Below are positions 10,514 to 62,825 of a stretch of 64,000 nucleotides of DNA, piece by piece (position 1 is the stretch's first letter; each line of letters begins with the position of its first letter). The stretch comes from Allacma fusca. Taxonomy: Eukaryota; Arthropoda; Collembola; Symphypleona; Sminthuridae. A program made the translations under genes and the position numbers. The stretch spans positions 8,928,001-8,992,000 of the forward strand of contig OX359249.1 in NCBI GenBank assembly GCA_947179485.1, in the 5' to 3' direction. The notes under the pieces were generated by a model, which saw only the letters and a program-made list of their open reading frames with translations, ran no database searches and was not told the DNA's origin.

Positions 10514-10539
10514 GTGTCGACAGGGATGTCAATTTCCAA

Positions 10540-11065: not shown

Positions 11066-11105
11066 ATGTAATGTGGGTATTTAGATACTGCTTGCATTTA
11101 TCATT

Positions 11106-11294: not shown

Positions 11295-11296
11295 AT

Positions 11297-11615: not shown

Positions 11616-11741
11616 ACAATCCAAGCTTACTAAATTAACGATTGATGATTAATAATTAGTAATCATTAATCGTTAATCATTAATCGTGATTATTAATCGT
11701 TGACATCCCTGTGTGTCGATATCTAACTAGTCATAGAGGAA

Positions 11742-17450: not shown

Positions 17451-17974
17451 GTTACTCTCTTCCACATGTTTAAGATAAACACCACCCAACTACTAGCAAT
17501 AGATGGTCGACTGAAACCACAAAAGGATAAAATAATCCAATTATTTTTACATGATTACTTTCAGACTCATAGGCATCGGACAAACCCCAGTCAGGAAATA
17601 CATGTCAGAAAAACCAAAACTTTTGACCTTGTTTTTCCACAGCTAATCTGATTACACGTGCACGAGTGACGTGTATTCAGGGGGAAAAGATCCCTGAGCA
17701 TCGGTTAACTTAATTTAGTAAGTACATTCAGAGAAGTTGAATTTTACTTGCTGGTTACGAATAGGATTTTTCGCCACGTTAGTGGCACACCACAACCAGT
17801 GTGATGAGGAGGAGCATAGAAAGACGCTATAGTTTCTAGAGCCAACCAACAAGAGGAGATATGTATCATAACACACTAAGATTATCCCCCTCTCACCTGA
17901 CTCACCTCACTGTAGATGAATTGTAAGTCAAAGCTTATGAGATGTGCACCTAGAAAGAAATCACAATCCAAGAG
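17451..17974. other. Non-coding stretch
   Basis: A 75-codon plus-strand frame starts inside the MITE and is not credible. No protease or gag-like motif of the retroelement downstream was seen here. Confidence 0.5.
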
Positions 17975-22631: not shown

Positions 22632-23159
22632 ATTGAACATGAATCGGCTTCTTGTGGAACAGGATTGTACATGGATCGGCTTCTTGTGGAACTGGATTGT
22701 ACATGAATAGGATTCTTGTGGAACTTGATTGTACATGAATCGGCTTCTTGTGGAACTGGATTGTACATGAATCGGATTCTTGTGGAACTTGATTGTACAT
22801 GAATCGGCTTCTTGTGAACTGGATTGTACATGAATCCGCTTCTTGTGAACTGGATTGTACATAAATCGGCTTCTTGTGGAACTGGATTGTACGTGAATCG
22901 GCTTCTTGTGGAACTGGATTGTACATGAATCGGCTTCTTGTGGAACTGGATTGTACATGAATCGGCTTCTTGTGGAACTGGATTGTAAATGAATCGGATT
23001 CTAGTGGAACTGGATTGTATATGATTCGGATTCTAGTGGAACTGGATTGTACATGAATCGGATTCTTGTGGAACTGGATTGTACATGAATCGGCTTCTTG
23101 TGGAACTGGATTGTACATGAATCGGCTTCTTGTGAAACTGGATTGTACATGAATCGGCT

Positions 23160-26100
23160 TCTTGTGGAACTGGATTGTACATGAATCGGCTTCTTGTGGA
23201 ACTAGATTGTACATGAATCGGATTCTAGTGGAACTGGATTGTACATGAATCGGATTCTAGTGGAACTGGATTGTACATGAATCGGATTCTAGTGGAACTG
23301 GATTGTACATGAATCGGATTCTAGTGGAACTGGATTGTACATGAACCGGATTCTAGTGGAACTGGATTGTACATGAATCGGATTCTTGTGGAACTGGATT
23401 GTACATGAATCGGATTCTTGTGGAACTTGATTGTACATGAATCCGCTTCTTGTGAACTGGATTTACATGAATCGGCTTCTTGTGGAACAGGATTGTACAT
23501 GAATCGGATTCTAGTGGAACTGGATTGTATATGATTCGGATTCTTGTGGAACAGGATTGTACATGAATCGGATTCTAGTGGAACTGGATTGTATATGATT
23601 CGGATTCTTGTGGAACAGGATTGTACATGAATCGGATTCTAGTGGAACTGGATTGTACATGAATCGGATTCTAGTGGAACTGGATTGTACATGAATCGGA
23701 TTCTAGTGGAACTGGATTGTACATGAACCGGATTCTGGTGGAACTGGATTGTACATGAATCGGATTCTTGTGGAACTGGATTGTACATGAATCGGATTCT
23801 TGTGGAACTTGATTGTACATGAATCGGCTTCTTGTGAACTGGATTGTACATGAATCGGCTTCTTGTGGAACTGGATTGTACATGAATCGGCTTCTTGTGG
23901 AACTTGATTGTACATGAATCGGCTTCTTGTGGAACTGGATTGTACATGAATCGGATTCTTGTGGAACTGGATTGTACATGAATCGGCTTCTTGTGGAACT
24001 GGATTGTACATGAATCGGCTTCTTGTGGAACTGGATTGTACATGAATCGGATTCTTGTGGAACTTGATTGTACATGAGTCGGCTTCTTGTGGAACTGGAT
24101 TGTACATGAACCGGATTCTAGTGGAACTGGATTGTACATGAATCGGATTCTTGTGGAACTGGATTGTACATGAATCGGATTCTTTTGGAACTTGATTGTA
24201 CATGAATCGGCTTCTTGTGAACTGGATTGTACATGAATCGGCTTCTTGTGGAACTGGATTGTACATGAATCGGCTTCTTGTGGAACTTGATTGTACATGA
24301 ATCGGCTTCTTGTGGAACTGGATTGTACATGAATCGGATTCTTGTGGAACTGGATTGTACATGAATCGGCTTCTTGTGGAACTGGATTGTACATGAATCG
24401 GATTCTTGTGGAACTTGATTGTACATGAGTCGGCTTCTTGTGGAACAGGATTTTACCTGAATCGGCTTCTTGTGGAACTTGATTGTAAATGAATCGGCTT
24501 CTTGTGGAACTGGATTGTACATGAATCGGATTCTTGTGGAACTTGATTGTACATGAATCGGCTTCTTGTGGAACTGGATTGTACATGAATCGGATTCTTG
24601 TGGAACTTGATTGTACATAATTCGGCTTCTTGTGAACTGGATTGTACATGAATCGGATTCTTGTGGAACTTGATCGTACATGAATCGGCTTCTTGTGGAA
24701 CTGGATTGTACATGAATCGGCTTCTTGTGGAACTGGATTGTACATGAATCCGCTTCTTGTGGAACTGGATTGTACATGAATCGGCTTCTTGTGGAACTGG
24801 ATTGTACATGAATCGGCTTCTTGTGGAACTGGATTGTACATGAATCGGCTTCTTGTGGAACTGGATTGTACATGAATCGGATTCTAGTGGAACTGGATTG
24901 TATATGATTCGGATTCTTGTGGAACAGGATTGTACATGAATCGGATTCTAGTGGAACTGGATTGTACATGAATCGGATTCTAGTGGAAGTGGATTGTACA
25001 TGAATCGGATTCTAGTGGAACTGGATTGTACATGAATCGGATTCTTGTGGAACTGGATTGTACATGAATCGGCTTCTTGTGGAACTGGATTGTACATGAA
25101 TCGGATTCTTGTGGAACTGGATTGTACATGAATCGGCTTCTTGTGGAACTGGATTGTACATGAATCGGCTTCTTGTGGAACTGGATTGTACATGAATCGG
25201 CTTCTTGTGAACCGGATTGTACATGAATCGGATTCTTGTGGAACTGGATTGTACATGAATCGGCTTCTTGTGGAACTGGATTGTACATGAATCGGCTTCT
25301 TGTGGAACTGGATTGTACATGAATCGGCTTTTTGTGGAACTGGATTGTACATGAATCGGATTCTAGTGGAACTGGATTGTATATGATTCGGATTCTAGTG
25401 GAACTGGATTGTACATGAATCGGCTTCTTGTGGAACTGGATTGTACATGAATCGGCTTCTTGTGGAACTGGATTGTACATGAATCGGCTTCGTGTGGAAC
25501 AGGATTGTACATGAATCGGCTTCTTGTGGAACAGGATTGTACATGAATCGGCTTCTTGTGGAACTAGATTGTACATGAATCGGATTCTAGTGGAACTGGA
25601 TTGTACATGAATCGGATTCTAGTGGAACTGGATTGTACATGAATCGGATTCTAGTGGAACTGGATTGTACATGAATCGGATTCTAGTGGAACTGGATTGT
25701 ACATGAACCGGATTCTAGTGGAACTGGATTGTACATGAATCGGATTCTTGTGGAACTGGATTGTACATGAATCGGATTCTTGTGGAACTTGATTGTACAT
25801 GAATCCGCTTCTTGTGAACTGGATTTACATGAATCGGCTTCTTGTGGAACAGGATTGTACATGAATCGGATTCTAGTCGAACTGGATTGTATATGATTCG
25901 GATTCTTGTGGAACAGGATTGTACATGAATCGGATTCTAGTGGAACTGGATTGTATATGATTCGGATTCTTGTGGAACAGGATTGTACATGAATCGGATT
26001 CTAGTGGAACTGGATTGTACATGAATCGGATTCTAGTGGAACTGGATTGTACATGAATCGGATTCTAGTGGAACTGGATTGTACATGAACCGGATTCTAG

Positions 26101-27908
26101 TGGAACTGGATTGTACATGAATCGGATTCTTGTGGAACTGGATTGTACATGAATCGGATTCTTATGGAACTTGATTGTACATGAATCGGCTTCTTGTGAA
26201 CTGGATTGTACATGAATCGGCTTCTTGTGGAACTGGATTGTACATGAATCGGCTTCTTGTGGAACTTGATTGTACATGAATCGGCTTCTTGTGGAACTGG
26301 ATTGTACATGAATCGGATTCTTGTGGAACTGGATTGTACATGAATCGGCTTCTTGTGGAACTGGATTGTACATGAATCGGCTTCTTGTGGAACTGGATTG
26401 TACATGAATCGGATTCTTGTGGAACTTGATTGTACATGAGTCGGCTTCTTGTGGAACTGGATTGTACATGAACCGGATTCTAGTGGAACTGGATTGTACA
26501 TGAATCGGATTCTTGTGGAACTGGATTGTACATGAATCGGATTCTTTTGGAACTTGATTGTACATGAATCGGCTTCTTGTGAACTGGATTGTACATGAAT
26601 CGGCTTCTTGTGGAACTGGATTGTACATGAATCGGCTTCTTGTGGAACTTGATTGTACATGAATCGGCTTCTTGTGGAACTGGATTGTACATGAATCGGA
26701 TTCTTGTGGAACTGGATTGTACATGAATCGGCTTCTTGTGGAACTGGATTGTACATGAATCGGATTCTTGTGGAACTTGATTGTACATGAGTCGGCTTCT
26801 TGTGGAACAGGATTTTACTTGAATCGGCTTCTTGTGGAACTTGATTGTAAATGAATCGGCTTCTTGTGGAACTGGATTGTACATGAATCGGATTCTTGTG
26901 GAACTTGATTGTACATGAATCGGCTTCTTGTGGAACTGGATTGTACATGAATCGGATTCTTGTGGAACTTGATTGTACATAATTCGGCTTCTTGTGAACT
27001 GGATTGTACATGAATCGGATTCTTGTGGAACTTGATCGTACATGAATCGGCTTCTTGTGGAACTGGATTGTACATGAATCGGCTTCTTGTGGAACTGGAT
27101 TGTACATGAATCCGCTTCTTGTGGAACTGGATTGTACATGAATCGGCATCTTGTGGAACTTGATTGTACATGAATCGGCTTCTTGTGGAACTGGATTGTA
27201 CATGAATCGGCTTCTTGTGGAACTGGATTGTACATGAATCGGATTCTAGTGGAACTGGATTGTATATGATTCGGATTCTTGTGGAACAGGATTGTACATG
27301 AATCGGATTCTAGTGGAACTGGATTGTACATGAATCGGATTCTAGTGGAAGTGGATTGTACATGAATCGGATTCTAGTGGAACTGGATTGTACATGAATC
27401 GGATTCTTGTGGAACTTGATTGTACATGAATCGGCTTCTTGTGGAACTGGATTGTACATGAATCGGATTCTTGTGGAACTGGATTGTACATGAATCGGCT
27501 TCTTGTGGAACTGGATTGTACATGAATCGGCTTCTTGTGGAACTGGATTGTACATGAATCGGCTTCTTGTGAACCGGATTGTACATGAATCGGATTCTTG
27601 TGGAACTGGATTGTACATGAATCGGCTTCTTGTGGAACTGGATTGTACATGAATCGGCTTCTTGTGGAACTGGATTGTACATGAATCGGCTTTTTGTGGA
27701 ACTGGATTGTACATGAATCGGATTCTAGTGGAACTGGATTGTATATGATTCGGATTCTAGTGGAACTGGATTGTACATGAATCGGCTTCTTGTGGAACTG
27801 GATTGTACATGAATCGGCTTCTTGTGGAACTGGATTGTACATGAATCGGCTTCGTGTGGAACAGGATTGTACATGAATCGGCTTCTTGTGGAACAGGATT
27901 GTACATGA
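23160..27908. repeat. Tandem higher-order duplication, period 2,362 bp
   Basis: The pattern of variant units from about 23,160 repeats from about 25,525 with a constant shift of 2,362 bp. For example the rare GCTTCGTGTGGAACAGG unit near 25,488 recurs near 27,850, TGATCGTACATG near 24,673 recurs near 27,035, and GAATCCGCTTCTTGTGG near 24,747 recurs near 27,109. A few single-base differences exist between copies. The period corresponds to about 74 basic units, some of them 31 bp long. Confidence 0.85.
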
Positions 27909-28059
27909 ATCGGATTCTAGTGGAACTGGATTGTATATGATTCGGATTCTTGTGGAACAGGATTGTACATGAATCGGATTCTAGTGGAACTGGATTGTAC
28001 ATGAATCGGATTCTAGTGGAACTGGATTGTACATGAATCGGATTCTAGTGGAACTGGAT

Positions 28060-31000
28060 TGTACATGAATCGGATTCTAGTGGAACTGGATTGTACATGA
28101 ATCGGATTCTAGTGGAACTGGATTGTACATGAATCGGATTCTTGTGGAACTGGATTGTACATGAATCGGCTTCTTGTGGACCTTGATTGTACATGAATCG
28201 GCTTCTTGTGAACTGGATTGTACATGAATCGGCTTCTTGTGGAACTGGATTGTACATGAATCGGCTTCTTGTGGAACTTGATTGTACATGAATCGGATTC
28301 TAGTGGAACTGGATTGTATATGATTCGGATTCTAGTGGAACTGGATTGTACATGAATCGGATTCTTGTGGAACTGGATTGTACATGAATCGGCTTCTTGT
28401 GGAACTGGATTGTACATGAATCGCCTTCTTGTGAAACTGAATTGTACATGAATCGGCTTCTTGTGGAACTGGATTGTACATGAATCGGATTCTTGTGGAA
28501 CTAGATTGTACATGAATCGGATTCTAGTGGAACTGGATTGTACATGAACCGGATTCTAGTGAAACTGGATTGTATATGATTCGGATTCTTGTGGAACAGG
28601 ATTGTACATGAATCGGATTCTAGTGGAACTGGATTGTACATGAATCGGATTCTAGTGGAACTGGATTGTACATGAATCGGATTCTAGTGGAACTGGATTG
28701 TACATGAATCGGATTCTTGTGGAACTGGATTGTACATGAATCGGATTCTTGTGGAACTTGATTGTACATGAATCCGCTTCTTGTGAACTGGATTTACATG
28801 AATCGGCTTCTTGTGGAACAGGATTGTACATGAATCGGATTCTAGTGGAACTGGATTGTATATGATTCGGATTCTTGCGGAACAGGATTGTACATGAATC
28901 GGATTCTAGTGGAACTGGATTGTACATGAATCGGATTCTAGTGGAACTGGATTGTACATGAATCGGATTCTAGTGGAACTCGATTGTACATGAACCGGAT
29001 TCTAGTGGAACTGGATTGTACATGAATCGGATTCTTGTGGAACTGGATTGTACATGAATCGGATTCTTGTGGAACTTGATTGTACATGAATCGGCTTCTT
29101 GTGAACTGGATTGTACATGAATCGGCTTCTTGTGGAACTGGATTGTACATGAATCGGCTTCTTGTGGAACTTGATTGTACATGAATCGGCTTCTTGTGGA
29201 ACTGGATTGTACATGAATCGGATTCTTGTGGAACTGGATTGTACATGAATCGGCTTCTTGTGGAACTGGATTGTACATGAATCGGCTTCTTGTGGAACTG
29301 GATTGTACATGAATCGGATTCTTGTGGAACTTGATTGTACATGAGTCGGCTTCTTGTGGAACAGGATTGTACTTGAATCGGTTTCTTGTGGAACTTGATT
29401 GTAAATGAATCGGCTTCTTGTGGAACTGGATTGTACATGAATCGGATTCTTGTGGAACTTGATTGTACATGAATCGGCTTCTTGTGGAACTGGATTGTAC
29501 ATGAATCGGATTCTTGTGGAACTTGATTGTACATAAATCGGCTTCTTGTGAACTGGATTGTACATGAATCGGATTCTTGTGGAACTTGATCGTACATGAA
29601 TCGGCTTCTTGTGGAACTGGATTGTACATGAATCGGCTTCTTGTGGAACTGGATTGTACATGAATCCGCTTCTTGTGGAACTGGATTGTACATGAATCGG
29701 CTTCTTGTGGAACTGGATTGTACATGAATCGGCTTCTTGTGGAACTGGATTGTACATGAATCGGCTTCTTGCGGAACTGGATTGTACATGAATCGGATTC
29801 TAGTGGAACTGGATTGTATATGATTCGGATTCTTGTGGAACAGGATTGTACATGAATCGGATTCTAGTGGAACTGGATTGTACATGAATCGGATTCTTGT
29901 GGAACTGGATTGTACATGAATCGGCTTTTTGTGGAACTGGATTGTACATGAATCGGATTCTAGTGGAACTGGATTGTATATGATTCGGATTCTAGTGGAA
30001 CTGGATTGTACATGAATCGGATTCTTGTGGAACTGGATTGTACATGAATCGGCTTCTTATGGAACTGGATTGTACATGAATCGGCTTCTTGTGGAACTGG
30101 ATTGTACATGAATCGGCTTCTTGTGGAACTGGATTGTACATGAATCGGCTTCTTGTGGAACAGGATTGTACATGAATCGGCTTGTTGTGGAACAGGATTG
30201 TACATGAATCGGATTCTAGTGGAACTGGATTGTATATGATTCGGATTCTTGTGGAACAGGATTGTACATGAATCGGATTCTAGTGGAACTGGATTGTACA
30301 TGAATCGGATTCTAGTGGAACTGGATTGTACATGAATCGGATTCTAGTGGAACTGGATTGTACATGAATCGGATTCTAGTGGAACTGGATTGTACATGAA
30401 TCGGATTCTAGTGGAACTGGATTGTACATCAATCGGATTCTTGTGGAACTGGATTGTACATGAATCGGCTTCTTGTGAACTGGATTGTACATGAATCGGA
30501 TTCTTGTGGACCTTGATTGTACATGAATCGGCTTCTTGTGAACTGGATTGTACATGAATCGGCTTCTTGTGGAACTGGATTGTACATGAATCGGCTTCTT
30601 GTGGAACTTGATTGTACATGAATCGGATTCTAGTGGAACTGGATTGTATTTGATTCGGATTCTAGTGGAACTGGATTGTACATGAATCGGATTCTTGTGG
30701 AACTGGATTGTACATGAATCGGCTTCTTGTGGAACTGGATTGTACATGAATCGCCTTCTTGTGAAACTGAATTGTACATGAATCGGCTTCTTGTGGAACT
30801 GGATTGTACATGAATCGGATTCTTGTGGAACTAGATTGTACATGAATCGGATTCTAGTGGAACTGGATTGTACATGAACCGGATTCTAGTGAAACTGGAT
30901 TGTATATGATTCGGATTCTTGTGGAACAGGATTGTACATGAATCGGATTCTAGTGGAACTGGATTGTACATGAATCGGATTCTAGTGGAACTGGATTGTA

Positions 31001-32650
31001 CATGAATCGGATTCTAGTGGAACTGGATTGTACATGAATCGGATTCTTGTGGAACTGGATTGTACATGAATCGGATTCTTGTGGAACTTGATTGTACATG
31101 AATCCGCTTCTTGTGAACTGGATTTACATGAATCGGCTTCTTGTGGAACAGGATTGTACATGAATCGGATTCTAGTGGAACTGGATTGTATATGATTCGG
31201 ATTCTTGTGGAACAGGATTGTACATGAATCGGATTCTAGTGGAACTGGATTGTACATGAATCGGATTCTAGTGGAACTGGATTGTACATGAATCGGATTC
31301 TAGTGGAACTCGATTGTACATGAACCGGATTCTAGTGGAACTGGATTGTACATGAATCGGATTCTTGTGGAACTGGATTGTACATGAATCGGATTCTTGT
31401 GGAACTTGATTGTACATGAATCGGCTTCTTGTGAACTGGATTGTACATGAATCGGCTTCTTGTGGAACTGGATTGTACATGAATCGGCTTCTTGTGGAAC
31501 TTGATTGTACATGAATCGGCTTCTTGTGGAACTGGATTGTACATGAATCGGATTCTTGTGGAACTGGATTGTACATGAATCGGCTTCTTGTGGAACTGGA
31601 TTGTACATGAATCGGCTTCTTGTGGAACTGGATTGTACATGAATCGGATTCTTGTGGAACTTGATTGTACATGAGTCGGCTTCTTGTGGAACAGGATTGT
31701 ACTTGAATCGGTTTCTTGTGGAACTTGATTGTAAATGAATCGCCTTCTTGTGGAACTGGATTGTACATGAATCGGATTCTTGTGGAACTTGATTGTACAT
31801 GAATCGGCTTCTTGTGGAACTGGATTGTACATGAATCGGATTCTTGTGGAACTTGATTGTACATAAATCGGCTTCTTGTGAACTGGATTGTACATGAATC
31901 GGATTCTTGTGGAACTTGATCGTACATGAATCGGCTTCTTGTGGAACTGGATTGTACATGAATCGGCTTCTTGTGGAACTGGATTGTACATGAATCCGCT
32001 TCTTGTGGAACTGGATTGTACATGAATCGGCTTCTTGTGGAACTGGATTGTACATGAATCGGCTTCTTGTGGAACTGGATTGTACATGAATCGGCTTCTT
32101 GCGGAACTGGATTGTACATGAATCGGATTCTAGTGGAACTGGATTGTATATGATTCGGATTCTTGTGGAACAGGATTGTACATGAATCGGATTCTAGTGG
32201 AACTGGATTGTACATGAATCGGATTCTTGTGGAACTGGATTGTACATGAATCGGCTTTTTGTGGAACTGGATTGTACATGAATCGGATTCTAGTGGAACT
32301 GGATTGTATATGATTCGGATTCTAGTGGAACTGGATTGTACATGAATCGGATTCTTGTGGAACTGGATTGTACATGAATCGGCTTCTTATGGAACTGGAT
32401 TGTACATGAATCGGCTTCTTGTGGAACTGGATTGTACATGAATCGGCTTCTTGTGGAACTGGATTGTACATGAATCGGCTTCTTGTGGAACAGGATTGTA
32501 CATGAATCGGCTTGTTATGGAACAGGATTGTACATGAATCGGATTCTAGTGGAACTGGATTGTATATGATTCGGATTCTTGTGGAACAGGATTGTACATG
32601 AATCGGATTCTAGTCGAACTGGATTGTACATGAATCGGATTCTAGTGGAA
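28060..32650. repeat. Tandem higher-order duplication, period 2,330 bp
   Basis: Variant order from about 28,060 repeats with a constant shift of 2,330 bp. For example the unit with TCGCCTTCTTGTG near 28,420 recurs near 30,750, and GAATCGGTTTCTTGTGG near 29,376 recurs near 31,706. The block is related to the 2,362-bp period further left and is shorter by one 32-bp unit. Confidence 0.85.
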
Positions 32651-33719
32651 CTGGATTGTACATGAATCGGATTCTAGTGGAACTGGATTGTACATGAATC
32701 GGATTCTAGTGGAACTGGATTGTACATGAATCGGATTCTAGTGGAACTGGATTGTACATGAATCGGATTCTTGTGGAACTGGATTGTACATGAATCGGCT
32801 TCTTGTGAACTGGATTGTACATGAATCGGATTCTTGTGGAACTGGATTGTACATGAATCGGCTTCTTGTGAACTGGATTGTACATGAATCGGCTTCTTGT
32901 GGAACTGGATTGTACATGAATCGGCTTCTTGTGGAACTTGATTGTACATGAATCGGCTTCTTGTGGAACTGGATTGTACATGAATCGGCTTCTTGTGGAA
33001 CTGGATTGTACTTGAATCGGCTTCTTGTGGAACTGGATTGTACATGAATCGGCTTCTTGTGGAACTGGATTGTACATGAATCGGCTTCTTGTGGAACTTG
33101 ATTGTACATGAATCGGCTTCTTGTGGAACTGGATTGTACATGAATCGGATTCTAGTGGAACCGGATTGTACATGAATCGGATTCTTGTGGAACAGGATTG
33201 TACATGAATCGGATTCTAGTGGAATTGGATTGTACATGAATCGGATTCTAGTGGAACTGGATTGTACATGAATCGGATTCTAGTGGAACTGGATTGTACA
33301 TGAATCGGATTCTAGTGGAACTGGATTGTACATGAATCGGATTCTTGTGGAACTGGATTGTACATGAATCGGATTCTTGTGGAACTTGATTGTACATGAA
33401 TCGGCTTCTTGTGAACTGGATTGTACATGAATCGGCTTCTTGTGGAACTGGATTGTACATGAATCGGCTTCTTGTGGAACTTGATTGTACATGAATCGGC
33501 TTCTTGTGGAACTGGATTGTACATGAATCGGCTTCTTGTGGAACTGGATTGTACTTGAATCGGCTTCTTGTGGAACTTGATTGTAAATGAATCGGCTTCT
33601 TGTGGAACTGGATTGTACATGAATCGGATTCTTGTGGAACTTGATTGTACATGAATCGGCTTCTTGTGGAACTGGATTCTACATGAATCGGATTCTTGTG
33701 GGACTTGGTTGTACATGAA

Positions 33720-36200
33720 TCGGCTTCTTAGGAACTGGATTGTACATGAATCGGCTTCTTGTGAACTGGATTGTACATGAATAGGCTTCTTGTGGAACTG
33801 GATTGTACATGAATCGGCTTCTTGTGGAACAGGATTGTACATGAATCGGCTTCTTGTGGAACAGGATTGTACATGAATCGGATTCTAGTGGAACTGGATT
33901 GTATATGATTCGGATTCTTGTGGAACAGGATTGTACATGAATCGGATTCTAGTGGAACTGGATTGTACATGAATCGGAATCTAGTGGAACTGGATTGTAC
34001 ATGAATCGGATTCTAGTGGAACTGGATTGTACATGAATCGGATTCTAGTGGAACTGGATTGTACATGAATCGGATTCTTGTGGAACTGGATTGTACATGA
34101 ATCGGATTCTTGTGGAACTTGATTGTACATGAATCGGCTTCTTGTGAACTGGATGGTACATGAATCGGCTTCTTGTGGAACTGGATTGTACATGAATCGG
34201 CTTCTTGTGGAACTTGATTGTTCATGAATCGGCTTCTTGTGGAACTGGATTGTACTTGAATCGGCTTCTTGTGGAACTGGATTGTACATGAATCGGCTTC
34301 TTGTGGAACTTGATTGTACATGAATCGGCTTCTTGTGAACTGGATTGTACATGAATCGGATTCTTGTGGAACTGGATTGTACATGAATCGGCTTCTTGTG
34401 AACTGGATTGTACATGAATCGGCTTCTTGTGAACTGGATTGTACAAGAATCGGATTCTAGTGGAACTGGATTGTACATGAATCGGCTTCTTGTGGAACTG
34501 GATTGTACATGAATCGGCTTCTTGTGGAACAGGATTGTACATGAATCGGCTTCTTGTGGAACTGGATTGTACATGAATCGGCTTCTTGTGGAACTGGAAT
34601 GTACTTGAATCGGCTTCTTGTGGAACTTGATTGTAAATGAATCGGGTTCTTGTGGAACTGGATTGTACATGAATCGGCTTCTTGTGGAACTGGATTGTAC
34701 ATGAATCGGCTTCTTGTGGAACAGGATTGTACATGAATCGGATTCTAGTGGAACTGGATTGTACATGAATCGGATTCTAGTGGAACTGGATTGTACATGA
34801 ATCGGATTCTAGTGGAACTGGATTGTATATGATTCGGATTCTTGTGGAACAGGATTGTACATGAATCGGATTCTAGTGGAACTGGATTGTACATGAATCG
34901 GCTTCTTGTGGAACTGGATTGTACATGAATCGGCTTCTTGTGGAACAGGATTGTACATGAATCGGCTTCTTGTGGAACTGGATTGTACATGAATCGGCTT
35001 CTTGTGGAACTGGATTGTACATGAATCGGCTTCTTGTGGAACTGGATTGTACATGAATCGGGTTCTTGTGGAACTTGATTGTAAATGAATCGGCTTCTTG
35101 TGGAACTGGATTGTACATGAATCGGATTCTTGTGGAACTTGATTGTACATGAATCGGCTTCTTGTGGAACTGGATTCTACATGAATCGGATTCTTGTGGG
35201 ACTTGGTTGTACATGAATCGGCTTCTTAGGAACTGGATTGTACATGAATCGGCTTCTTGTGAACTGGATTGTACATGAATCGGCTTCTTGTGGAACTGGA
35301 TTGTACATGAATCGGCTTCTTGTGGAACAGGATTGTACATGAATCGGCTTCTTGTGGAACAGGATTGTACATGAATCGGATTCTAGTGGAACTGGATTGT
35401 ATATGATTCGGATTCTTGTGGAACAGGATTGTACATGAATCGGATTCTAGTGGAACTGGATTGTACATGAATCGGAATCTAGTGGAACTGGATTGTACAT
35501 GAATCGGATTCTAGTGGAACTGGATTGTACATGAATCGGATTCTAGTGGAACTGGATTGTACATGAATCGGATTCTTGTGGAACTGGATTGTACATGAAT
35601 CGGATTCTTGTGGAACTTGATTGTACATGAATCGGCTTCTTGTGAACTGGATGGTACATGAATCGGCTTCTTGTGGAACTGGATTGTACATGAATCGGCT
35701 TCTTGTGGAACTTGATTGTTCATGAATCGGCTTCTTGTGGAACTTGATTGTACATGAATCGGCTTCTTGTGAACTGGATTGTACATGAATCGGATTCTTG
35801 TGGAACTGGATTGTACATGAATCGGCTTTTTGTGAACTGGATTGTACATGAATCGGCTTCTTGTGAACTGGATTGTACAAGAATCGGATTCTAGTGGAAC
35901 TGGATTGTACATGAATCGGCTTCTTGTGGAACTGGATTGTACATGAATCGGCTTCTTGTGGAACAGGATTGTACATGAATCGGCTTCTTGTGGAACTGGA
36001 TTGTACATGAATCGGCTTCTTGTGGAACTGGAATGTACTTGAATCGGCTTCTTGTGGAACTTGATTGTAAATGAATCGGGTTCTTGTGGAACTGGATTGT
36101 ACATGAATCGGCTTCTTGTGGAACTGGATTGTACATGAATCGGCTTCTTGTGGAACAGGATTGTACATGAATCGGATTCTAGTGGAACTGGATTGTACAT
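33720..36200. repeat. Higher-order duplication, shift 1,498 changing to 1,434 bp
   Basis: The short unit TTCTTAGGAACTGG at 33,727 recurs at 35,225 (shift 1,498). Further right the same two copies are shifted by 1,434, so one copy has lost exactly 64 bp, two basic units. Unique markers such as GATGGTACATG (34,151 and 35,649) and TTGTTCATG support the alignment. Confidence 0.75.
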
Positions 36201-49300: not shown

Positions 49301-50249
49301 ACTGGATTGTACATGAATCGGATTCTAGTGGAACTGGATTGTATATGATTCGGATTCTTGTGGAACAGGATTGTACATGAATCGGATTCTAGTGGAACTG
49401 GATTGTACATGAATCGGATTCTAGTGGAACTGGATTGTACATGAATCGGATTCTAGTAGAACTGGATTGTACATGAATCGGATTCTTGTGGAACTGGATT
49501 GTACATGAATCGGATTCTTGTGGAACTTGATTGTACATGAATCGGCTTCTTGTGGAACTGGATTGTACATGAATCGGCTTCTTGTGGAACTGGAATGTAC
49601 TTGAATCGGCTTCTTGTGGAACTTGATTGTAAATGAATCGGCTTCTTGTGGAACTGGATTGTACATGAATCGGATTCTTGTGGAACTTGATTGTACATGA
49701 ATCGGCTTCTTGTGGAACTGGATTGTACTTGAATCGGCTTCTTGTGGAACTTGATTGTAAATGAATCGGCTTCTTGTGAACTGGATTGTACATGAATCGG
49801 CTTCTTGTGAACTTGATTGTACATGAATCGGCTTCTTGTGGAACTGGATTGTACATGAATCGGATTCTTGTGGAACTTGATTGTACATAAATCGGCTTCT
49901 TGTGAACTGGATTGTGCATGAATCGGATTCTTGTGGAACTTGATCGTACATGAATCGGCTTCTTGTGGAACTGGATTGTACATGAATCGGCTTCATGTGG
50001 AACTGGATTGTACATGAATCGGCTTCTTGTGGAACTGGATTGTACATGAATCGGCTTCTTGTGGAACTGGATTGTACATGAATCGGCTTCTTGTGGAACT
50101 GGATTGTACATGAATCGGCTTCTTGCGGAACTGGATTGTACATGAATCGGATTCTAGTGGAACTGGATTGTATATGATTCGGATTCTTGTGGAACAGGAT
50201 TGTACATGAATCGGATTCTAGTGGAACTGGATTGTACATGAATCGGATT

Positions 50250-53200
50250 CTAGTGGAACTGGCTTGTACATGAATCGGATTCTAGTGGAACTGGATTGTA
50301 CATGAATCGGATTCTAGTGGAACTGGATTGTACATGAATCGGATTCTTGTGGAACTGGATTGTACATGAATCGGATTCTTGTGGAACTTGATTGTACATG
50401 AATCGGCTTCTTGTGAACTGGATTGTACATGAATCGGCTTCTTGTGGAACTGGATTGTACATGAATCGGCTTCTTGTGGAACTTGATTGTACATGAATCG
50501 GCTTCTTGTGGAACTGGATTGTACATGAATCGGCTTCTTGTGGAACTGGATTGTACTTGAATCGGCTTCTTGTGGAACTTGATTGTAAATGAATCGGCTT
50601 CTTGTGGAACTGGATTGTACTTGAATCGGCTTCTTGTGGAACTTGATTGTAAATGAATCGGCTTCTTGTGGAACTGGATTGTACATGAATCGGCTTCTTG
50701 TGGAACTTGATTGTAAATGAATCGGCTTCTTGTGGAACTGGATTGTACTTGAATCGGCTTCTTGTGGAACTGGATTGTACATGAATCGGATTCTTGTGGA
50801 ACTTGATTGTACATGAATCGGCTTCTTGTGGAACTGGATTGTACATGAATCGGCTTCTTGTGGAACTGGAATGTACTTGAATCGGCTTCTTGTGGAACTT
50901 GATTGTAAATGAATCGGCTTCTTGTGGAACTGGATTGTACATGAATCGGCTTCTTGTGGAACTGGATTGTACATGAATCGGCTTCTTGTGGAACTGGATT
51001 GTACATGAATCGGCTTCTTGTGGAACTGGATTGTACATGAATCGGCTTCTTGTGGAACTGGATTGTACATGAATCGGCTTCTTGTGGAACTGGATTGTAC
51101 ATGAATCGGATTCTAGTGAAACTGGATTGTATATGATTCGGATTCTTGTGGAACAGGATTGTACATGAATCGGAGTCTAGTGGAACTGGATTGTACATGA
51201 ATTGGATCTTGTGGAACTGGATTGTACATGAATCGGATTCTAGTGGAACTGGATTGTACATAAATCGGATTCTTTTGGAACTGGATTGTACATGAATCGG
51301 ATTCTTGTGGAACTTGATGGTACATGAATCCGCTTCTTGTGAACTGGATTGTACATGAATCGGCTTCTTGAGGAACTGGATTGTACATGAATCGGCTTCT
51401 TGTGGAATTTGATTGTACATGAATCGGCTTCTTGTGGAACTGGATTGTACATGAATCGGCTTCTTGTGGAACTGGATTGTACTTGAATCGGCTTCTTGTA
51501 GAACTTGATTGTAAATGAATCGGCTTCTTGTGAACTGGATTGTACATGAATCGGCTTCTTGTGAACTTGATTGTACATGAATCGGATTCTTGTGGAACTT
51601 GATTGTACATAAATCGGCTTCTTGTGAACTGGATTGTGCATGAATCGGATTATTGTGGAACTTGATCGTACATGAATCGGCTTCTTGTGGAACTGGATTG
51701 TACATGAATCGGCTTCTTGTGGAACTGGATTGTACATGAATCGGCTTCTTGTGGAACTGAATTGTACATGAATCGGCTTCTTGTGGAACTGGATTGTACA
51801 TGAATCGGCTTCTTGTGGAACTGGATTGTACATGAATCGGATTCTAGTGGAACTGGATTGTATATGATTCGGATTCTTGTGGAACAGGATTGTACATGAC
51901 TCGGATTCTAGTGGAACTGGATTGTACATGAATCGGATTCTAGTGGAACTGGATTGTACATGAATCGGATTCTAGTGGAACTGGATTGTACATGAATCGG
52001 ATTCTTGTGGAACTGGATTGTACATGAATCGGATTCTTGTGGAACTTGATTGTACATGAATCGGCTTCTTGTGGAACTGGATTGTACATGAATCGGCTTC
52101 TTGTGGAACTGGAATGTACTTGAATCGGCTTCTTGTGGAACTTGATTGTAAATGAATCGGCTTCTTGTGGAACTGGATTGTACATGAATCGGCTTCTTGT
52201 GGAACTGGATTGTACATGAATCGGATTCTTGTGGAACTTGATTGTACATGAATCGGCTTCTTGTGGAACTGGATTGTACTTGAATCGGCTTCTTGTGGAA
52301 CTTGATTGTAAATGAATCGGCTTCTTGTGAACTGGATTGTACATGAATCGGCTTCTTGTGAACTTGATTGTACATGAATCGGCTTCTTGTGGAACTGGAT
52401 TGTACATGAATCGGATTCTTGTGGAACTTGATTGTACATAAATCGGCTTCTTGTGAACTGGATTGTGCATGAATCGGATTCTTGTGGAACTTGATCGTAC
52501 ATGAATCGGCTTCTTGTGGAACTGGATTGTACATGAATCGGCTTCTTGTTGAACTGGATTGTACACGAATCGGCTTCTTGTGGAACTGGATTGTACATGA
52601 ATCGGCTTCTTGTGGAACTGGATTGTACATGAATTGGCTTCTTGTGGAACTGGATTGTACATGAATCGGCTTCTTGCGGAACTGGATTGTACATGAATCG
52701 GATTCTAGTAGAACTGGATTGTATATGATTCGGATTCTTGTGGAACAGGATTGTACATGAATCGGATTCTAGTGGAACTGGATTGTACATGAATCGGATT
52801 CTAGTGGAACTGGATTGTACATGAATCGGATTCTAGTGGAACTGGATTGTACATGAATCGGATTCTTGTGGAACTGGATTGTACATGAATCGGATTCTTG
52901 TGGAACTTGATTGTACATGAATCGGCTTCTTGTGGAACTGGATTGTACATGAATCGGCTTCTTGTGGAACTGGATTGTACTTGAATCGGCTTCTTGTGGA
53001 ACTTGGTTGTAAATGAATCGGCTTCTTGTGGAACTGGATTGTACATGAATCGGCTTCTTGTGGAACTGGATTGTACATGAATCGGATTCTTGTGGAACTT
53101 GATTGTACATGAATCGGCTTCTTGTGGAACTGGATTGTACTTGAATCGGCTTCTTGTGGAACTTGATTGTAAATGAATCGGCTTCTTGTGAACTGGATTG

Positions 53201-54730
53201 TACATGAATCGGCTTCTTGTGAACTTGATTGTACATGAATCGGCTTCTTGTGGAACTGGATTGTACATGAATCGGATTCTTGTGGAACTTGATTGTACAT
53301 AAATCGGCTTCTTGTGAACTGGATTGTGCATGAATCGGATTCTTGTGGAACTTGATCGTACATGAATCGGCTTCTTGTGGAACTGGATTGTACATGAATC
53401 GGCTTCTTGTGGAACTGGATTGTACATGAATCGGCTTCTTGTGGAACTGGATTGTACATGAATCGGCTTCTTGTGGAACTGGATTGTACATGAATTGGCT
53501 TCTTGTGGAACTGGATTGTACATGAATCGGCTTCTTGCGGAACTGGATTGTACATGAATCGGATTCTAGTGGAACTGGATTGTATATGATTCGGATTCTT
53601 GTGGAACAGGATTGTACATGAATCGGATTCTAGTGGAACTGGATTGTACATGAATCGGATTCTAGTGGAACTGGATTGTACATGAATCGGATTCTAGTGG
53701 AACTGGATTGTACATGAATCGGATTCTTGTGGAACTGGATTGTACATGAATCGGATTCTTGTGGAACTTGATTGTACATGAATCGGCTTCTTGTGGAACT
53801 GGATTGTACACGAATCAGCTTCTTGTGGAACTGGATTGTACTTGAATCGGCTTCTTGTGGAACTTGGTTGTAAATGAATCGGCTTCTTGTGGAACTGGAT
53901 TGTACATGAATCGGCTTCTTGTGGAACTGGATTGTACATGAATCGGATTCTTGTGGAACTTGATTGTACATGAATCGGCTTGTTGGGGAACTGGATTGTA
54001 CATGAATCGGATTCTTGTGGAACTTGGATGTACATGAATCGGCTTCTTTTGAACTGGATTGTACATGAATCGGCTTCTTGTGAACTGGATTGTACATGAA
54101 TCGGCTTCTTGTGGAACTGGATTGTACATGAATCGGCTTCTTGTGGAACTGGATTGTACATGAATCGGCTTCTTGTGGAACTGGATTGTACATGAATCGG
54201 ATTCTAGTGGAACTGGATTGTACATGAATCGGCTTCTTGTGGAACTGGATTGTACATGAATAGGATTCTTGTGGAACTTGATTGTACATGAATCGGCTTC
54301 TTGTGAACTGCATTGTACACGAATCGGCTTCTTGAGGAACTGGATTGTACATGAATCGGCTTCTTGTGGAACTTGATTGTACATGAATCGGCTTCTTGTG
54401 GAACTGGATTGTACATGAATCGGCTTCTTGTGGAACTGGATTGTACTTGAATCGGCTTCTTGTGGAACTTGATTGTAAATGAATCGGATTCTTGTGGAAC
54501 TTAATCGTACATGAATCGGCTTCTTGTGGAACTGGATTGTACTTGAATCGGCTTCTTGTGGAACTTGATTGTAAATGAATCGGATTCTTGTGGAACTTGA
54601 TCGTACATGAATCGGCTTCTTGTGGAACTGGATTGTACATGAATCGGCTTCTTGTGGAACTGGATTGTACATGAATCGGCTTCTTGTGGAACTGGATTGT
54701 ACATGAATCGGCTTCTTGTGGAACTGCATT
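50250..54730. repeat. Long-range duplicated block, left copy
   Basis: This block matches about 58,060-61,940 with shifts of 7,429, then 7,269, then 7,205 bp. The steps between shifts are 160 and 64 bp, that is five and two basic units, showing unit-sized deletions in one copy. Rare markers shared by both copies include GAATTGGATCTTGTGG (51,199 and 58,628), CGGATTATTGTGG (51,646 and 59,075) and GGCTTGTTGGGGAACTGG (53,976 and 61,181). Confidence 0.85.
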
Positions 54731-57700
54731 GTACATGAATCGGCTTCTTGTGGAACTGGATTGTACATGAATCGGCTTCTTGTGGAACTGGATTGTACAT
54801 GAATCGGCTTCTTGTGGAACTGGATTGTACATGAATCGGCTTCTTGTGTAACTGGATTGTACATGAATCGGCTTCTTGTGGAACTGGATTGTACATGAAT
54901 CGGCTTCTTGTGGAACTGGATTGTACATGAATTGGCTTCTTGTGGAACTGGATTGTACATGAATCGGCTTCTTGCGGAACTGGATTGTACATGAATCGGA
55001 TTCTAGTGGAACTGGATTGTATATGATTCGGATTCTTGTGGAACAGGATTGTACATGAATCGGATTCTAGTGGAACTGGATTGTACATGAATCGGCTTCT
55101 TGTGGAACTGGATTGTACATGAATCGGCTTCTTGTGGAACAGGATTGTACATGAATCGGCTTCTTGTGGAACTGGATTGTACATGAATCGGCTTCTTGTG
55201 GAACTGGATTGTACATGAATCGGCTTCTTGTGGAACTGGATTGTACATGAATCGGGTTCTTGTGGAACTGGATTGTACATGAATCGGCTTCTTGTGGAAC
55301 TGGATTGTACATGAATCGGCTTCTTGTGGAACAGGATTGTACATGAATCGGATTCTAGTGGAACTGGATTGTACATGAATCGGATTCTAGTGGAACTGGA
55401 TTGTACATGAATCGGATTCTTGTGGAACTGGATTGTACATGAATCGGATTCTTGTGGAACTTGATTCTACATGAATCGGCTTCTTGTGGAACTGGATTGT
55501 ACATGAATCGGCTTCTTGTGGAACTGGAATGTACTTGAATCGGCTTCTTGTGGAACTTGATTGTAAATGAATCGGCTTCTTGTGGAACTGGATTGTACAT
55601 GAATCGGCTTCTTGTGGAACTGGATTGTACATGAATCGGATTCTTGTGGAACTTGATTGTACATGAATCGGCTTCTTGTGGAACTGGATTGTACTTGAAT
55701 CGGCTTCTTGTGGAACTTGATTGTAAATGAATCGGCTTCTTGTGAACTGGATTGTACATGAATCGGCTTCTTGTGAACTCGATTGTACATGAATCGGCTT
55801 CTTGTGGAACTGGATTGTACATGAATCGGCTTCTTGTGGGACTGGATTGTACATGAATCGGCTTCTTGTGGAACTGGATTGTACATGAATCGGCTTCTTG
55901 CGGAACTGGATTGTACATGAATAGAATTCTAGTGGAACTGGATTGTATATGATTCGGATTCTTGTGGAACAGGATTGTACATGAATCGGATTCTAGTGGA
56001 ACTGGATTGTACATGAATCGGATTCTAGTGGAACTGGATTGTACATGAATCGGATTCTAGTGGAACTGGATTGTACATGAATCGGATTCTTGTGGAACTG
56101 GATTGTACATGAATCGGATTCTTGTGGAACTTGATTGTACATGAATCGGCTTCTTGTGGAACTGGATTGTACATGAATCGGCTTCTTGTGGAACTGGAAT
56201 GTACTTGAATCGGCTTCTTGTGGAACTTGATTGTAAATGAATCGGCTTCTTGTGGAACTGGATTGTACATGAATCGGATTCTTGTGGAACTTGATTGTAC
56301 ATGAATCGGCTTCTTGTGGAACTGGATTGTACTTGAATCGGCTTCTTGTGGAACTTGATTGTAAATGAATCGGCTTCTTGTGAACTGGATTGTACATGAA
56401 TCGGCTTCTTGTGAACTGGATTGTACATGAATCGGCTTCTTGTGAACTTGATTGTACATGAATCGGCTTCTTGTGGAACTGGATTGTACATGAATCGGAT
56501 TCTTGTGGAACTTGATTGTACATAAATCGGCTTCTTGTGAACTGGATTGTGCATGAATCGGATTCTTGTGGAACTTGATCGTACATGAATCGGCTTCTTG
56601 TGGAACTGGATTGTACATGAATCGGCTTCATGTGGAACTGGATTGTACATGAATCGGCTTCTTGTGGAACTGGATTGTACATGAATCGGCTTCTTGTGGA
56701 ACTGGATTGTACATGAATCGGCTTCTTGTGGAACTGGATTGTACATGAATCGGCTTCTTGCGGAACTGGATTGTACATGAATCGGATTCTAGTGGAACTG
56801 GATTGTATATGATTCGGATTCTTGTGGAACAGGATTGTACATGAATCGGATTCTAGTGGAACTGGATTGTACATGAATCGGATTCTAGTGGAACTGGATT
56901 GTACATGAATCGGATTCTAGTGGAACTGGATTGTACATGAATCGGATTCTTGTGGAACTGGATTGTACATGAATCGGATTCTTGTGGAACTTGATTGTAC
57001 ATGAATCGGCTTCTTGTGGAACTGGATTGTACATGAATCGGCTTCTTGTGGAACTGGAATGTACTTGAATCGGCTTCTTGTGGAACTTGATTGTAAATGA
57101 ATCGGCTTCTTGTGGAACTGGATTGTACATGAATCGGATTCTTGTGGAACTTGATTGTACATGAATCGGCTTCTTGTGGAACTGGATTGTACTTGAATCG
57201 GCTTCTTGTGGAACTTGATTGTAAATGAATCGGCTTCTTGTGAACTGGATTGTACATGAATCGGCTTCTTGTGAACTTGATTGTACATGAATCGGCTTCT
57301 TGTGGAACTGGATTGTACATGAATCGGATTCTTGTGGAACTTGATTGTACATAAATCGGCTTCTTGTGAACTGGATTGTGCATGAATCGGATTCTTGTGG
57401 AACTTGATTGTACATGAATCGGCTTCTTGTGGAACTGGATTGTACATGAATCGGCTTCTTGTGGAACTGGAATGTACTTGAATCGGCTTCTTGTGGAACT
57501 TGATTGTAAATGAATCGGCTTCTTGTGGAACTGGATTGTACATGAATCGGATTCTTGTGGAACTTGATTGTACATGAATCGGCTTCTTGTGGAACTGAAT
57601 TGTACTTGAATCGGCTTCTTGTGGAACTTGATTGTAAATGAATCGGCTTCTTGTGAACTGGATTGTACATGAATCGGCTTCTTGTGAACTTGATTGTACA

Positions 57701-58059
57701 TGAATCGGCTTCTTGTGGAACTGGATTGTACATGAATCGGATTCTTGTGGAACTTGATTGTACATAAATCGGCTTCTTGTGAACTGGATTGTGCATGAAT
57801 CGGATTCTTGTGGAACTTGATCGTACATGAATCGGCTTCTTGTGGAACTGGATTGTACATGAATCGGCTTCATGTGGAACTGGATTGTACATGAATCGGC
57901 TTCTTGTGGAACTGGATTGTACATGAATCGGCTTCTTGTGGAACTGGATTGTACATGAATCGGCTTCTTGTGGAACTGGATTGTACATGAATCGGCTTCT
58001 TGCGGAACTGGATTGTACATGAATCGGATTCTAGTGGAACTGGATTGTATATGATTCGG

Positions 58060-61000
58060 ATTCTTGTGGAACAGGATTGTACATGAATCGGATTCTAGTG
58101 GAACTGGATTGTACATGAATCGGATTCTAGTGGAACTGGATTGTACATGAATCGGATTCTAGTGGAACTGGATTGTACATGAATCGGATTCTAGTGGAAC
58201 TGGATTGTACATGAATCGGATTCTTGTGGAACTGGATTGTACATGAATCGGATTCTTGTGGAACTTGATTGTACATGAATCGGCTTCTTGTGAACTGGAT
58301 TGTACATGAATCGGCTTCTTGTGGAACTGGATTGTACATGAATCGGCTTCTTGTGGAACTTGATTGTACATGAATCGGCTTCTTGTGGAACTGGATTGTA
58401 CATGAATCGGCTTCTTGTGGAACTGGATTGTACATGAATCGGCTTCTTGTGGAACTGGATTGTACATGAATCGGCTTCTTGTGGAACTGGATTGTACATG
58501 AATCGGCTTCTTGTGGAACTGGATTGTACATGAATCGGATTCTAGTGAAACTGGATTGTATATGATTCGGATTCTTGTGGAACAGGATTGTACATGAATC
58601 GGAGTCTAGTGGAACTGGATTGTACATGAATTGGATCTTGTGGAACTGGATTGTACATGAATCGGATTCTAGTGGAACTGGATTGTACATAAATCGGATT
58701 CTTGTGGAACTGGATTGTACATGAATCGGATTCTTGTGGAACTTGATGGTACATGAATCCGCTTCTTGTGAACTGGATTGTACATGAATCGGCTTCTTGA
58801 GGAACTGGATTGTACATGAATCGGCTTCTTGTGGAATTTGATTGTACATGAATCGGCTTCTTGTGGAACTGGATTGTACATGAATCGGCTTCTTGTGGAA
58901 CTGGATTGTACTTGAATCGGCTTCTTGTGGAACTTGATTGTAAATGAATCGGCTTCTTGTGAACTGGATTGTACATGAATCGGCTTCTTGTGAACTTGAT
59001 TGTACATGAATCGGATTCTTGTGGAACTTGATTGTACATAAATCGGCTTCTTGTGAACTGGATTGTGCATGAATCGGATTATTGTGGAACTTGATCGTAC
59101 ATGAATCGGCTTCTTGTGGAACTGGATTGTACATGAATCGGCTTCTTGTGGAACTGGATTGTACATGAATCGGCTTCTTGTGGAACTGAATTGTACATGA
59201 ATCGGCTTCTTGTGGAACTGGATTGTACATGAATCGGCTTCTTGTGGAACTGGATTGTACATGAATCGGCTTCTTGCGGAACTGGATTGTACATGAATCG
59301 GATTCTAGTGGAACTGGATAATATATGATTCGGATTCTTGTGGAACAGGATTGTACATGACTCGGATTCTAGTGGAACTGGATTGTACATGAATCGGATT
59401 CTAGTGGAACTGGATTGTACATGAATCGGATTCTAGTGGAACTGGATTGTACATGAATCCGATTCTTGTGGAACTGGATTGTACATGAATCGGATTCTTG
59501 TGGAACTTGATTGTACATGAATCGGCTTCTTGTGGAACTGGATTGTACATGAATCGGCTTCTTGTGGAACTGGAATGTACTTGAATCGGCTTCTTGTGAA
59601 CTGGATTGTACATGAATCGGCTTCTTGTGAACTTGATTGTACATGAATCGGCTTCTTGTGGAACTGGATTGTACATGAATCGGATTCTTGTGGAACTTGA
59701 TTGTACATAAATCGGCTTCTTGTGAACTGGATTGTGCATGAATCGGATTCTTGTGGAACTTGATCGTACATGAATCGGCTTCTTGTGGAACTGGATTGTA
59801 CATGAATCGGCTTCTTGTTAAACTGGATTGTACACGAATCGGCTTCTTGTGGAACTGGATTGTACATGAATCGGCTTCTTGTGGAACTGGATTGTACATG
59901 AATTGGCTTCTTGTGGAACTGGATTGTACATGAATCGGCTTCTTGCGGAACTGGATTGTACATGAATCGGATTCTAGTAGAACTGGATTGTATATGATTC
60001 GGATTCTTGTGGAACAGGATTGTACATGAATCGGATTCTAGTGGAACTGGATTGTACATGAATCGGATTCTAGTGGAACTGGATTGTACATGAATCGGAT
60101 TCTAGTGGAACTGGATTGTACATGAATCGGATTCTTGTGGAACTGGATTGTACATGAATCGGATTCTTGTGGAACTTGATTGTACATGAATCGGCTTCTT
60201 GTGGAACTGGATTGTACATGAATCGGCTTCTTGTGGAACTGGATTGTACTTGAATCGGCTTCTTGTGGAACTTGGTTGTAAATGAATCGGCTTCTTGTGG
60301 AACTGGATTGTACATGAATCGGCTTCTTGTGGAACTGGATTGTACATGAATCGGATTCTTGTGGAACTTGATTGTACATGAATCGGCTTCTTGTGGAACT
60401 GGATTGTACTTGAATCGGCTTCTTGTGGAACTTGATTGTAAATGAATCGGCTTCTTGTGAACTGGATTGTACATGAATCGGCTTCTTGTGAACTTGATTG
60501 TACATGAATCGGCTTCTTGTGGAACTGGATTGTACATGAATCGGATTCTTGTGGAACTTGATTGTACATAAATCGGCTTCTTGTGAACTGGATTGTGCAT
60601 GAATCGGATTCTTGTGGAACTTGATCGTACATGAATCGGCTTCTTGTGGAACTGGATTGTACATGAATCGGCTTCTTGTGGAACTGGATTGTACATGAAT
60701 CGGCTTCTTGTGGAACTGGATTGTACATGAATCGGCTTCTTGTGGAACTGGATTGTACATGAATTGGCTTCTTGTGGAACTGGATTGTACATGAATCGGC
60801 TTCTTGCGGAACTGGATTGTACATGAATCGGATTCTAGTGGAACTGGATTGTATATGATTCGGATTCTTGTGGAACAGGATTGTACATGAATCGGATTCT
60901 AGTGGAACTGGATTGTACATGAATCGGATTCTAGTGGAACTGGATTGTACATGAATCGGATTCTAGTGGAACTGGATTGTACATGAATCGGATTCTTGTG

Positions 61001-61940
61001 GAACTGGATTGTACATGAATCGGCTTCTTGTGGAACTGGATTGTACTTGAATCGGCTTCTTGTGGAACTTGGTTGTAAATGAATCGGCTTCTTGTGGAAC
61101 TGGATTGTACATGAATCGGCTTCTTGTGGAACTGGATTGTACATGAATCGGATTCTTGTGGAACTTGATTGTACATGAATCGGCTTGTTGGGGAACTGGA
61201 TTGTACATGAATCGGATTCTTGTGGAACTTGGATGTACATGAATCGGCTTCTTTTGAACTGGATTGTACATGAATCGGCTTCTTGTGAACTGGATTGTAC
61301 ATGAATCGGCTTCTTGTGGAACTGGATTGTACATGAATCGGCTTCTTGTGGAACTGGATTGTACATGAATCGGCTTCTTGTGGAACTGGATTGTACATGA
61401 ATCGGATTCTAGTGGAACTGGATTGTACATGAATCGGCTTCTTGTGGAACTGGATTGTACATGAATAGGATTCTTGTGGAACTTGATTGTACATGAATCG
61501 GCTTCTTGTGAACTGCATTGTACACGAATCGGCTTCTTGAGGAACTGGATTGTACATGAATCGGCTTCTTGTGGAACTTGATTGTACATGAATCGGCTTC
61601 TTGTGGAACTGGATTGTACATGAATCGGCTTCTTGTGGAACTGGATTGTACTTGAATCGGCTTCTTGTGGAACTTGATTGTAAATGAATCGGATTCTTGT
61701 GGAACTTAATCGTACATGAATCGGCTTCTTGTGGAACTGGATTGTACTTGAATCGGCTTCTTGTGGAACTTGATTGTAAACGAATCGGATTCTTGTGGAA
61801 CTTGATCGTACATGAATCGGCTTCTTGTGGAACTGGATTGTACATGAATCGGCTTCTTGTGGAACTGGATTGTACATGAATCGGCTTCTTGTGGAACTGG
61901 ATTGTACATGAATCGGCTTCTTGTGGAACTGGATTGTACA
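58060..61940. repeat. Long-range duplicated block, right copy
   Basis: Right partner of the block at 50,250-54,730. It is shorter overall because whole units are missing near 59,590 and near 61,020 relative to the left copy. Single-base differences are few, so the duplication is young relative to the divergence among basic units. Confidence 0.85.
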
Positions 61941-62130
61941 TGAATCGGCTTCTTGTGGAACTGGATTGTACATGAATCGGCTTCTTGTGGAACTGGATTG
62001 TACTTGAATCGGCTTCTTGTGGAACTGGATTGTACATGAATCGGCTTCTTGTGGAACTGGATTGTACTTGAATCGGCTTCTTGTGGAACTTGATTGTACA
62101 TGAATCGGCTTCTTGTGGAACTGGATTGTA

Positions 62131-62825
62131 GTTGAATCTAACTGTTCCCGAATCCGCTTGTACTTGATTTAAAATCCAGTAGAATCAGTTTCCAAGTGAA
62201 ATTGCCTTCCAGCAGAACGTTCAAGGCTAATTTAAAAAAATATCTTTCTTTATAAACCACCTTCATAATTATTTTCCTTCCATATGAATGCGATGTATAA
62301 TATAATAAAATTGTTGATACCAATATTTAATATTCTCTCACTTCTGCGTATATTTGAGTCATCACGTGTTTCAAGGATACAACCGGCTTCAACCCCCTAC
62401 TAGTTTTGGTTAGAAAGAAAGCCTTCCCTTAATCTTCATTTAGCGTTTCCTCGGTATTCCTTCAAGTTGCTGAAAAATCTGCCGCCTTTGAAGGCTGGGC
62501 ATGTGTGAGCCAAATGTCAGTGGGTTTCACTAATATGCAGGAGAAAGGAGAACTCACTCATACATGTACAAAGGGCATACCAAAGTTACTTTTGACCCCC
62601 CTTGGAAAAATCGGAAAATTTTGACCCCCCGATTGATTTTTTTGAAAATCAATATCATGACCTTGTACGTTAAAGTTATGTGGAATAAAGTAGGCTAAAC
62701 GGTAGTTTGAACAATTGTAAAGCCAAAAATCCTGAAATTCATTCAAAATGTGGCAGTAATTACCAAAAACTTATTTTATAAGAAGAAAAAATGCTTCAGA
62801 GGTGCATTGCATGAGAAACGCATAG
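62131..62825. other. Non-coding flank right of the satellite
   Basis: The array degrades over its last tens of bases (GATTGTAGTTGAATC, then unrelated sequence) into AT-rich DNA. A 61-codon frame (62,138-62,323) and a 62-codon frame (62,558-62,746), both minus, show nothing recognisable. No continuation of the retroelement fossil from the other side of the array is visible. Confidence 0.6.

Follow-up and report, generated by a model that had tools for sequence, protein, structure and literature searches.

The window, by which we mean the whole 64,000-nucleotide stretch of Allacma fusca DNA analysed here, is mostly filled by a satellite array of a 32-bp unit with the consensus GGATTGTACATGAATCGGCTTCTTGTGGAACT, which runs from 22630 to 62138 on the plus strand and is detected by TRF with a period of 32, 1238.5 copies, 93% matches and a score of 66715. 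Cutting the array by wrap-around alignment yields 1,240 pieces: 1,113 of 32 bp, 121 of 31 bp, two of 33 bp, two of 30 bp, plus an incomplete piece at each end (2 and 18 bp). As all pieces except the ends measure 30–33 bp, nothing is inserted in the array. The 1,238 complete units, with the two partial ends excluded, have a mean identity to the consensus of 95.6% (minimum 81%), and they lie in a single orientation, the 17-base core of the unit occurring 888 times on the plus strand and never on the minus strand inside the array. The same core is found on neither strand of the flanks, and unit-like matches in the left flank are within the range of chance, the best reaching 18 on the plus strand and 15 on the minus strand against up to 21 and 17, respectively, in 20 shuffles. 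The locus is thus a long head-to-tail array of one unit. A sequence-only reading had described some 1,230 such units, in one orientation and without insertion, between 22632 and 62130; that description is borne out, with the ends displaced by 2 and 8 bases.

The same reading held both flanks to be full of elements, which is true of the left flank, where a Pfam scan of 17 of the 64 listed ORFs found reverse transcriptase (RT), RNase H, integrase zinc-binding and hAT dimerisation domains and where two small elements carry 8-bp duplications, whereas the right flank amounts to only 1.86 kb in the window. The first small element (10521–11711) is bounded by 12-bp terminal inverted repeats (CAGGGATGTCAA) and an 8-bp target duplication (TGTGTCGA), both perfect, and contains two internal arrays of 41-bp tandem repeats; by its features we take it to be hAT-like. 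The second (17044–17442), upstream of the Gypsy-like pol discussed below, has inverted ends that match at 11 of 12 positions (CAGGGTTGG...) and an 8-bp duplication (GGTTCCAG), and inside it a 193-bp stretch is directly duplicated. Both come from a scan for inverted-end elements that returned five candidates; the three others were weak (10/12) and were dropped. A further stretch, 17974–20295, has inverted ends GTAGTGGTCGGA...TCCGACCACTAC and subterminal GATTCAATTC-type repeats; an 8-bp duplication was looked for there and not found. The left flank also holds a hAT C-terminal dimerisation remnant on the minus strand (4856–5062; PF05699, E 1.4e-07), a reverse transcriptase ORF on the minus strand (8558–9412; RVT_1, E 2.3e-18) that we read as being of non-LTR type, a possible DDE transposase piece (12581–12826; PF13359, E 0.021, below cut-off) and a near-perfect palindrome of 94 bp (5669–5762) with a 95.7% self-match on the opposite strand. 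Short CGAGTAC-like motifs form two clusters in the right flank, at 63030–63260 and 63740–63960. Searches of Rfam at gathering scores and for tRNAs returned no match.

Directly to the left of the array lies a decayed pol (20955–22627, plus strand), putatively Gypsy-like as read from its domain order rather than from a tree. One of its ORFs contains RT and RNase H (RT_RNaseH_2), which Pfam recognizes at E 1.3e-13 and 2.8e-29, respectively, and an ORF in a different frame contains the zinc-binding domain of an integrase (E 4.9e-18). The catalytic core of an integrase normally follows its zinc-binding domain; here the core is absent, the stop codon of the integrase-piece ORF (22625–22627) lying within 3 bases of the array start at 22630. 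The ORF upstream of this pol (20279–20785) has no Pfam match, and the Gypsy-like ORF has no relative in viral contigs. At the right edge the unit is lost abruptly. The bases at 62139–62215, to which no strand is assigned, may be what is left of a degenerate or inverted unit, but the evidence is borderline: within 200 bases of the edge, 3 of 100 mononucleotide shuffles on each strand score as high as the best match; over the 500 bases past the edge degenerate units are not significant (15 of 100 and 8 of 100 shuffles as good).

These edges bear on where the array came from. A comparison of the left and right flanks in both orientations gives no match at E up to 1, and Pfam finds no domain in the 10 of 28 listed right-flank ORFs that were scanned (an eleventh, nearly all array, was scanned separately), so that no remainder of the Gypsy-like element is detected in the 1.86 kb at right; an array seated inside such an element, with its remainder at right, is rejected on both counts. 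A related proposal is that the array is the expanded internal tandem repeat of one transposable element and not a free satellite. The two small left-flank elements, with their internal 41-bp and 193-bp units, indicate that such a route exists in this genome, and Helentron elements of oyster are reported to carry satellite-like repeats (PMC7492417). The array itself, however, is bordered by flanks that resemble each other in neither orientation, that lack the unit core and whose best unit-like match, at left, does not leave the shuffle range, and we regard this origin as improbable.

The units fall into well-marked variants: 128 distinct forms are present (partial ends included), the three commonest making up 606 of the 1,240 pieces. 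Between 5 and 40% of units depart from the commonest letter at each of positions 1, 9, 10, 14, 19, 24, 27 and 32, against 0.1–3.1% at the remaining 24 positions. Position 19 is C in 746 units and A in 475, while A at position 24 occurs in 230 complete units, all of which also carry A19. This pattern fits a nested history in which A24 would have arisen a single time on an A19 unit and then been multiplied by copying. Along the array the shares of the variants drift irregularly. A19 accounts for 0.49, 0.55 and 0.51 of the first three 100-unit blocks; thereafter its share is 0.28–0.41 in full blocks, the last of which has 0.39, and 0.25 in the final 40 units. T10 starts at a share of 0 and reaches 0.15, with the last full block dropping to 0.04. 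The A19/A24 subfamily carries the dyad GAATC-G-GATTC, and three of its units as single-stranded DNA fold better than 200 of 200 shuffles (z -3.5), against a z of -1.7 for the consensus, for which 16 of 200 shuffles are equally good. A 16-bp origin of the unit, as two half-units, finds a weak signal, with 8 of 16 positions matching (P 0.02 against 5,000 shuffles, with only this shift considered).

The variants also help to decide whether the minus strand is a coding repeat that specifies a giant protein of 32-residue repeats, a proposal suggested by a consensus without a stop in any minus frame and by the resulting ORFs of up to 616 codons. Pfam NinE exceeds its cut-off of 25 bits in both of the two array ORFs scanned (28.6 and 34.9 bits), but the match spans 21 residues only and no stretch passes on its own; we judge it a spurious chance match multiplied by repetition, and the other Pfam matches of the array ORFs are to unrelated families and below cut-offs. 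Each minus frame contains 84–95 stops, and the 121 units of 31 bp shift the frame. Counted by occurrence, 260 of 1,628 substitutions create a stop, of which 230 are the T24A variant; with T24A excluded the figure is only 30 of 1,398, as a coding repeat would have it, yet because a single variant, which itself creates a stop, supplies 230 of the 260, the count by occurrence proves little. Counted by type, 12 of the 70 changes observed create a stop, compared with 13 of the 96 that are possible; stops are thus not avoided, and by this measure the array is non-coding. The stop counts, T24A and the frame-shifting 31-bp units lead us to reject a coding repeat, which we consider highly improbable, and the long minus-strand ORFs are best explained by a consensus that is stop-free by chance.

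The order of the variants, in turn, is repeated in blocks. When each distinct unit is written as one letter and compared with 10 permutations and 10 first-order Markov shuffles, the latter keeping neighbour frequencies, 65.2% of units belong to exact runs of at least 12 units found again at another place in the array; in all 20 shuffles the share is 0. Recurring runs of at least 6 units cover 86.9%, against means of 0.4% in the permutations and 39.0% in the Markov shuffles; the longest recurring run is 37 units, against at most 6 and 10; and the top unit-level local alignment score is 670, against maxima of 21.4 and 55.3, respectively. Five of the 14 best extracted blocks are longer than their own offset and are therefore tandem duplications of many-unit segments, or super-repeats, a mark of out-of-register exchange. 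One of these five pairs 36222–54822 with 42349–61995 at an offset of 6.1–7.2 kb, joining 507 unit pairs with 83% identical units and 98.8% identical bases. The best-scoring alignment, 23172–48985 with 25534–50420, joins 710 pairs (73% identical units, 98.1% identical bases) at an offset that drifts, and as it crosses both parts of the array, the division into left and right parts, which is our own, is not sharp. With that proviso, the left part (22630–33000, plus strand) has the highest A19 share and a super-repeat of 73–74 units (about 2.33–2.36 kb), this being the best lag in each of the eight 40-unit windows whose starts lie at 22628 to 31534. In the three windows from 32812 to 35362 the best lag shortens to 45–47 units, and the right part (36222–61995, plus strand) is a mosaic that includes the 6–7 kb tandem offset and has no dominant lag, 287, 192, 74, 228 and 27 units leading at 0.17–0.18. 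Over the whole array, units match exactly at lag 74 with a frequency of 0.205, against 0.096 by chance. Likeness between units is 93.4% for adjacent units, 93.7% at lag 2 and 91.9% at lags of 801–1200 units (lags sampled), and since neighbours are hardly more alike than remote units, the working piece is the block and not the unit; monomer-level exchange is not the dominant step. The copies have thus been homogenised by block copying within the array.

Many near-identical blocks at fixed offsets, with up to 99.9% identical bases, might also be produced if the assembler had duplicated stretches of a shorter real array, making the locus partly an assembly expansion. A block copied by an assembler is expected to leave identical copies of several kilobases, whereas the longest exact base duplicates here are 1,203, 1,019 and 960 bp (longest run per offset, offsets of at least 33 bases), the first of them at an offset of 7,269 bp. 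This maximum of 1.2 kb speaks against assembly expansion, as do the scattered changes by which the blocks differ and the many different offsets at which they lie, and we think such an expansion quite unlikely. Somewhat less remote, though still unlikely, is that the super-repeats stem from extrachromosomal circles that were excised from the array, multiplied by rolling-circle amplification and then reinserted. The left super-repeat of about 2.3–2.4 kb and the right tandem offset of 6–7 kb could each be reinserted circles, but the offsets of the exact runs are many and unrelated instead of reflecting one circle length (of 65 runs, the 60 listed span 15 to 588 units), and unequal exchange requires no extra step.

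What is directly observed is an array in a single orientation, with distinct variant classes whose order is duplicated block-wise, and to account for this we propose with good confidence a non-coding eukaryotic satellite, probably in transposon-rich heterochromatin, that has grown and been kept alike by repeated out-of-register exchange. Such exchange, between sister chromatids or homologues, would duplicate or delete blocks of tens to hundreds of units; it would presumably take the form of unequal crossing-over assisted by gene conversion, and the same turnover may also purge insertions from what would be a heterochromatic location. Active turnover had earlier been argued from the insertion-free state of the array, which alone would not have proved it; the turnover stands because the variant order repeats block-wise. 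As to its means, previously given as unequal exchange or gene conversion, unequal exchange fits the overlapping tandem blocks better than conversion alone, within the limit that one haplotype cannot separate crossing-over, conversion and rolling-circle reinsertion.

Decayed edges would be the expected outcome of long unequal exchange. Here, however, the first 12 and last 12 complete units have identities of 0.88–1.0 against an interior mean of 0.956, so that divergence is no greater at the edges than inside. These intact units and a left edge directly after the integrase piece are both at odds with a long and quiet history of such exchange. The near-equal likeness of adjacent and remote units and the lack of a leading lag in the right part also count against the proposed account. 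The array edges look like breakpoints, which may be recent.

Nothing in our analysis identifies the array as centromeric. That the unit might be the main centromeric or subtelomeric satellite of the host, with its loose super-repeats of 2.3–7 kb playing the part of nucleosome-length units, appears rather unlikely. The two unit types tested have at least 3 mismatches in the 9 specified bases of the CENP-B box, a box that is present only in some centromeric families. Neither strand of the window has two consecutive telomere repeats of the form TTAGGG, TTAGG or TTGGG, in a stretch of 64 kb that is too short to judge a subterminal position. What the locus does offer is a clean record of block-wise satellite copying, in 1,238 insertion-free units with well-marked variants, and it may be useful for measuring turnover between individuals.

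The array is a real and well-resolved satellite, its sequence new as far as tested and its kind ordinary. In the portions of the literature that were searched, the letters of the unit gave only 13-base coincidences in 6 papers, apparently on unrelated topics, and six 17-base fragments gave no match. The 17-base core has no match in viral contigs. Prokaryote contigs totalling 257 billion bases contain it 13 times, each a single match, where by our own arithmetic about 30 would be expected for random sequence, so that no relative is indicated; a phage megablast of window positions 1–8000 likewise found none. Most satellite units are described in a review as nucleosome-length or 5–10 bp (PMC8122249), while reports on other hosts give units of 8–400 bp in locust, 29 bp in gecko and 49 bp in Vaccinium, and on these a unit of 32 bp is less common but known. 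The unit is indeed shorter than typical centromeric satellites, as had been remarked, but its length is no mark of novelty, since pCht/StSat, the subterminal satellite of chimpanzee, bonobo and gorilla, also has a unit of 32 bp (PMC12758386).

As described there (PMC12758386), pCht/StSat resembles our array in its 32-bp unit, long arrays (from less than 10 kb to hundreds of kilobases), unit subtypes and higher-order structure. The array here differs in running for 39.5 kb without a spacer, and it differs in sequence, the best ungapped circular match being 13 of 32 positions, fewer than shuffles give on average (14.4; P 0.96, 2,000 shuffles); kinship is rejected. Minisatellites (VNTR) share a unit in the tens of bases, but their arrays, with mean sizes given as 0.5–30 kb in the passages cited (PMC8122249), are exceeded by 39.5 kb, and the transposon-rich left flank is likewise unlike them. 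Alpha satellite, as portrayed in those passages (PMC8122249), is similar in that alike tandem units are copied together in longer blocks, and dissimilar in its unit of about 171 bp against 32 bp and in that the super-repeats here are loose and change in length. Short-unit satellites and block-wise homogenisation being already known, the array by itself changes no general view.
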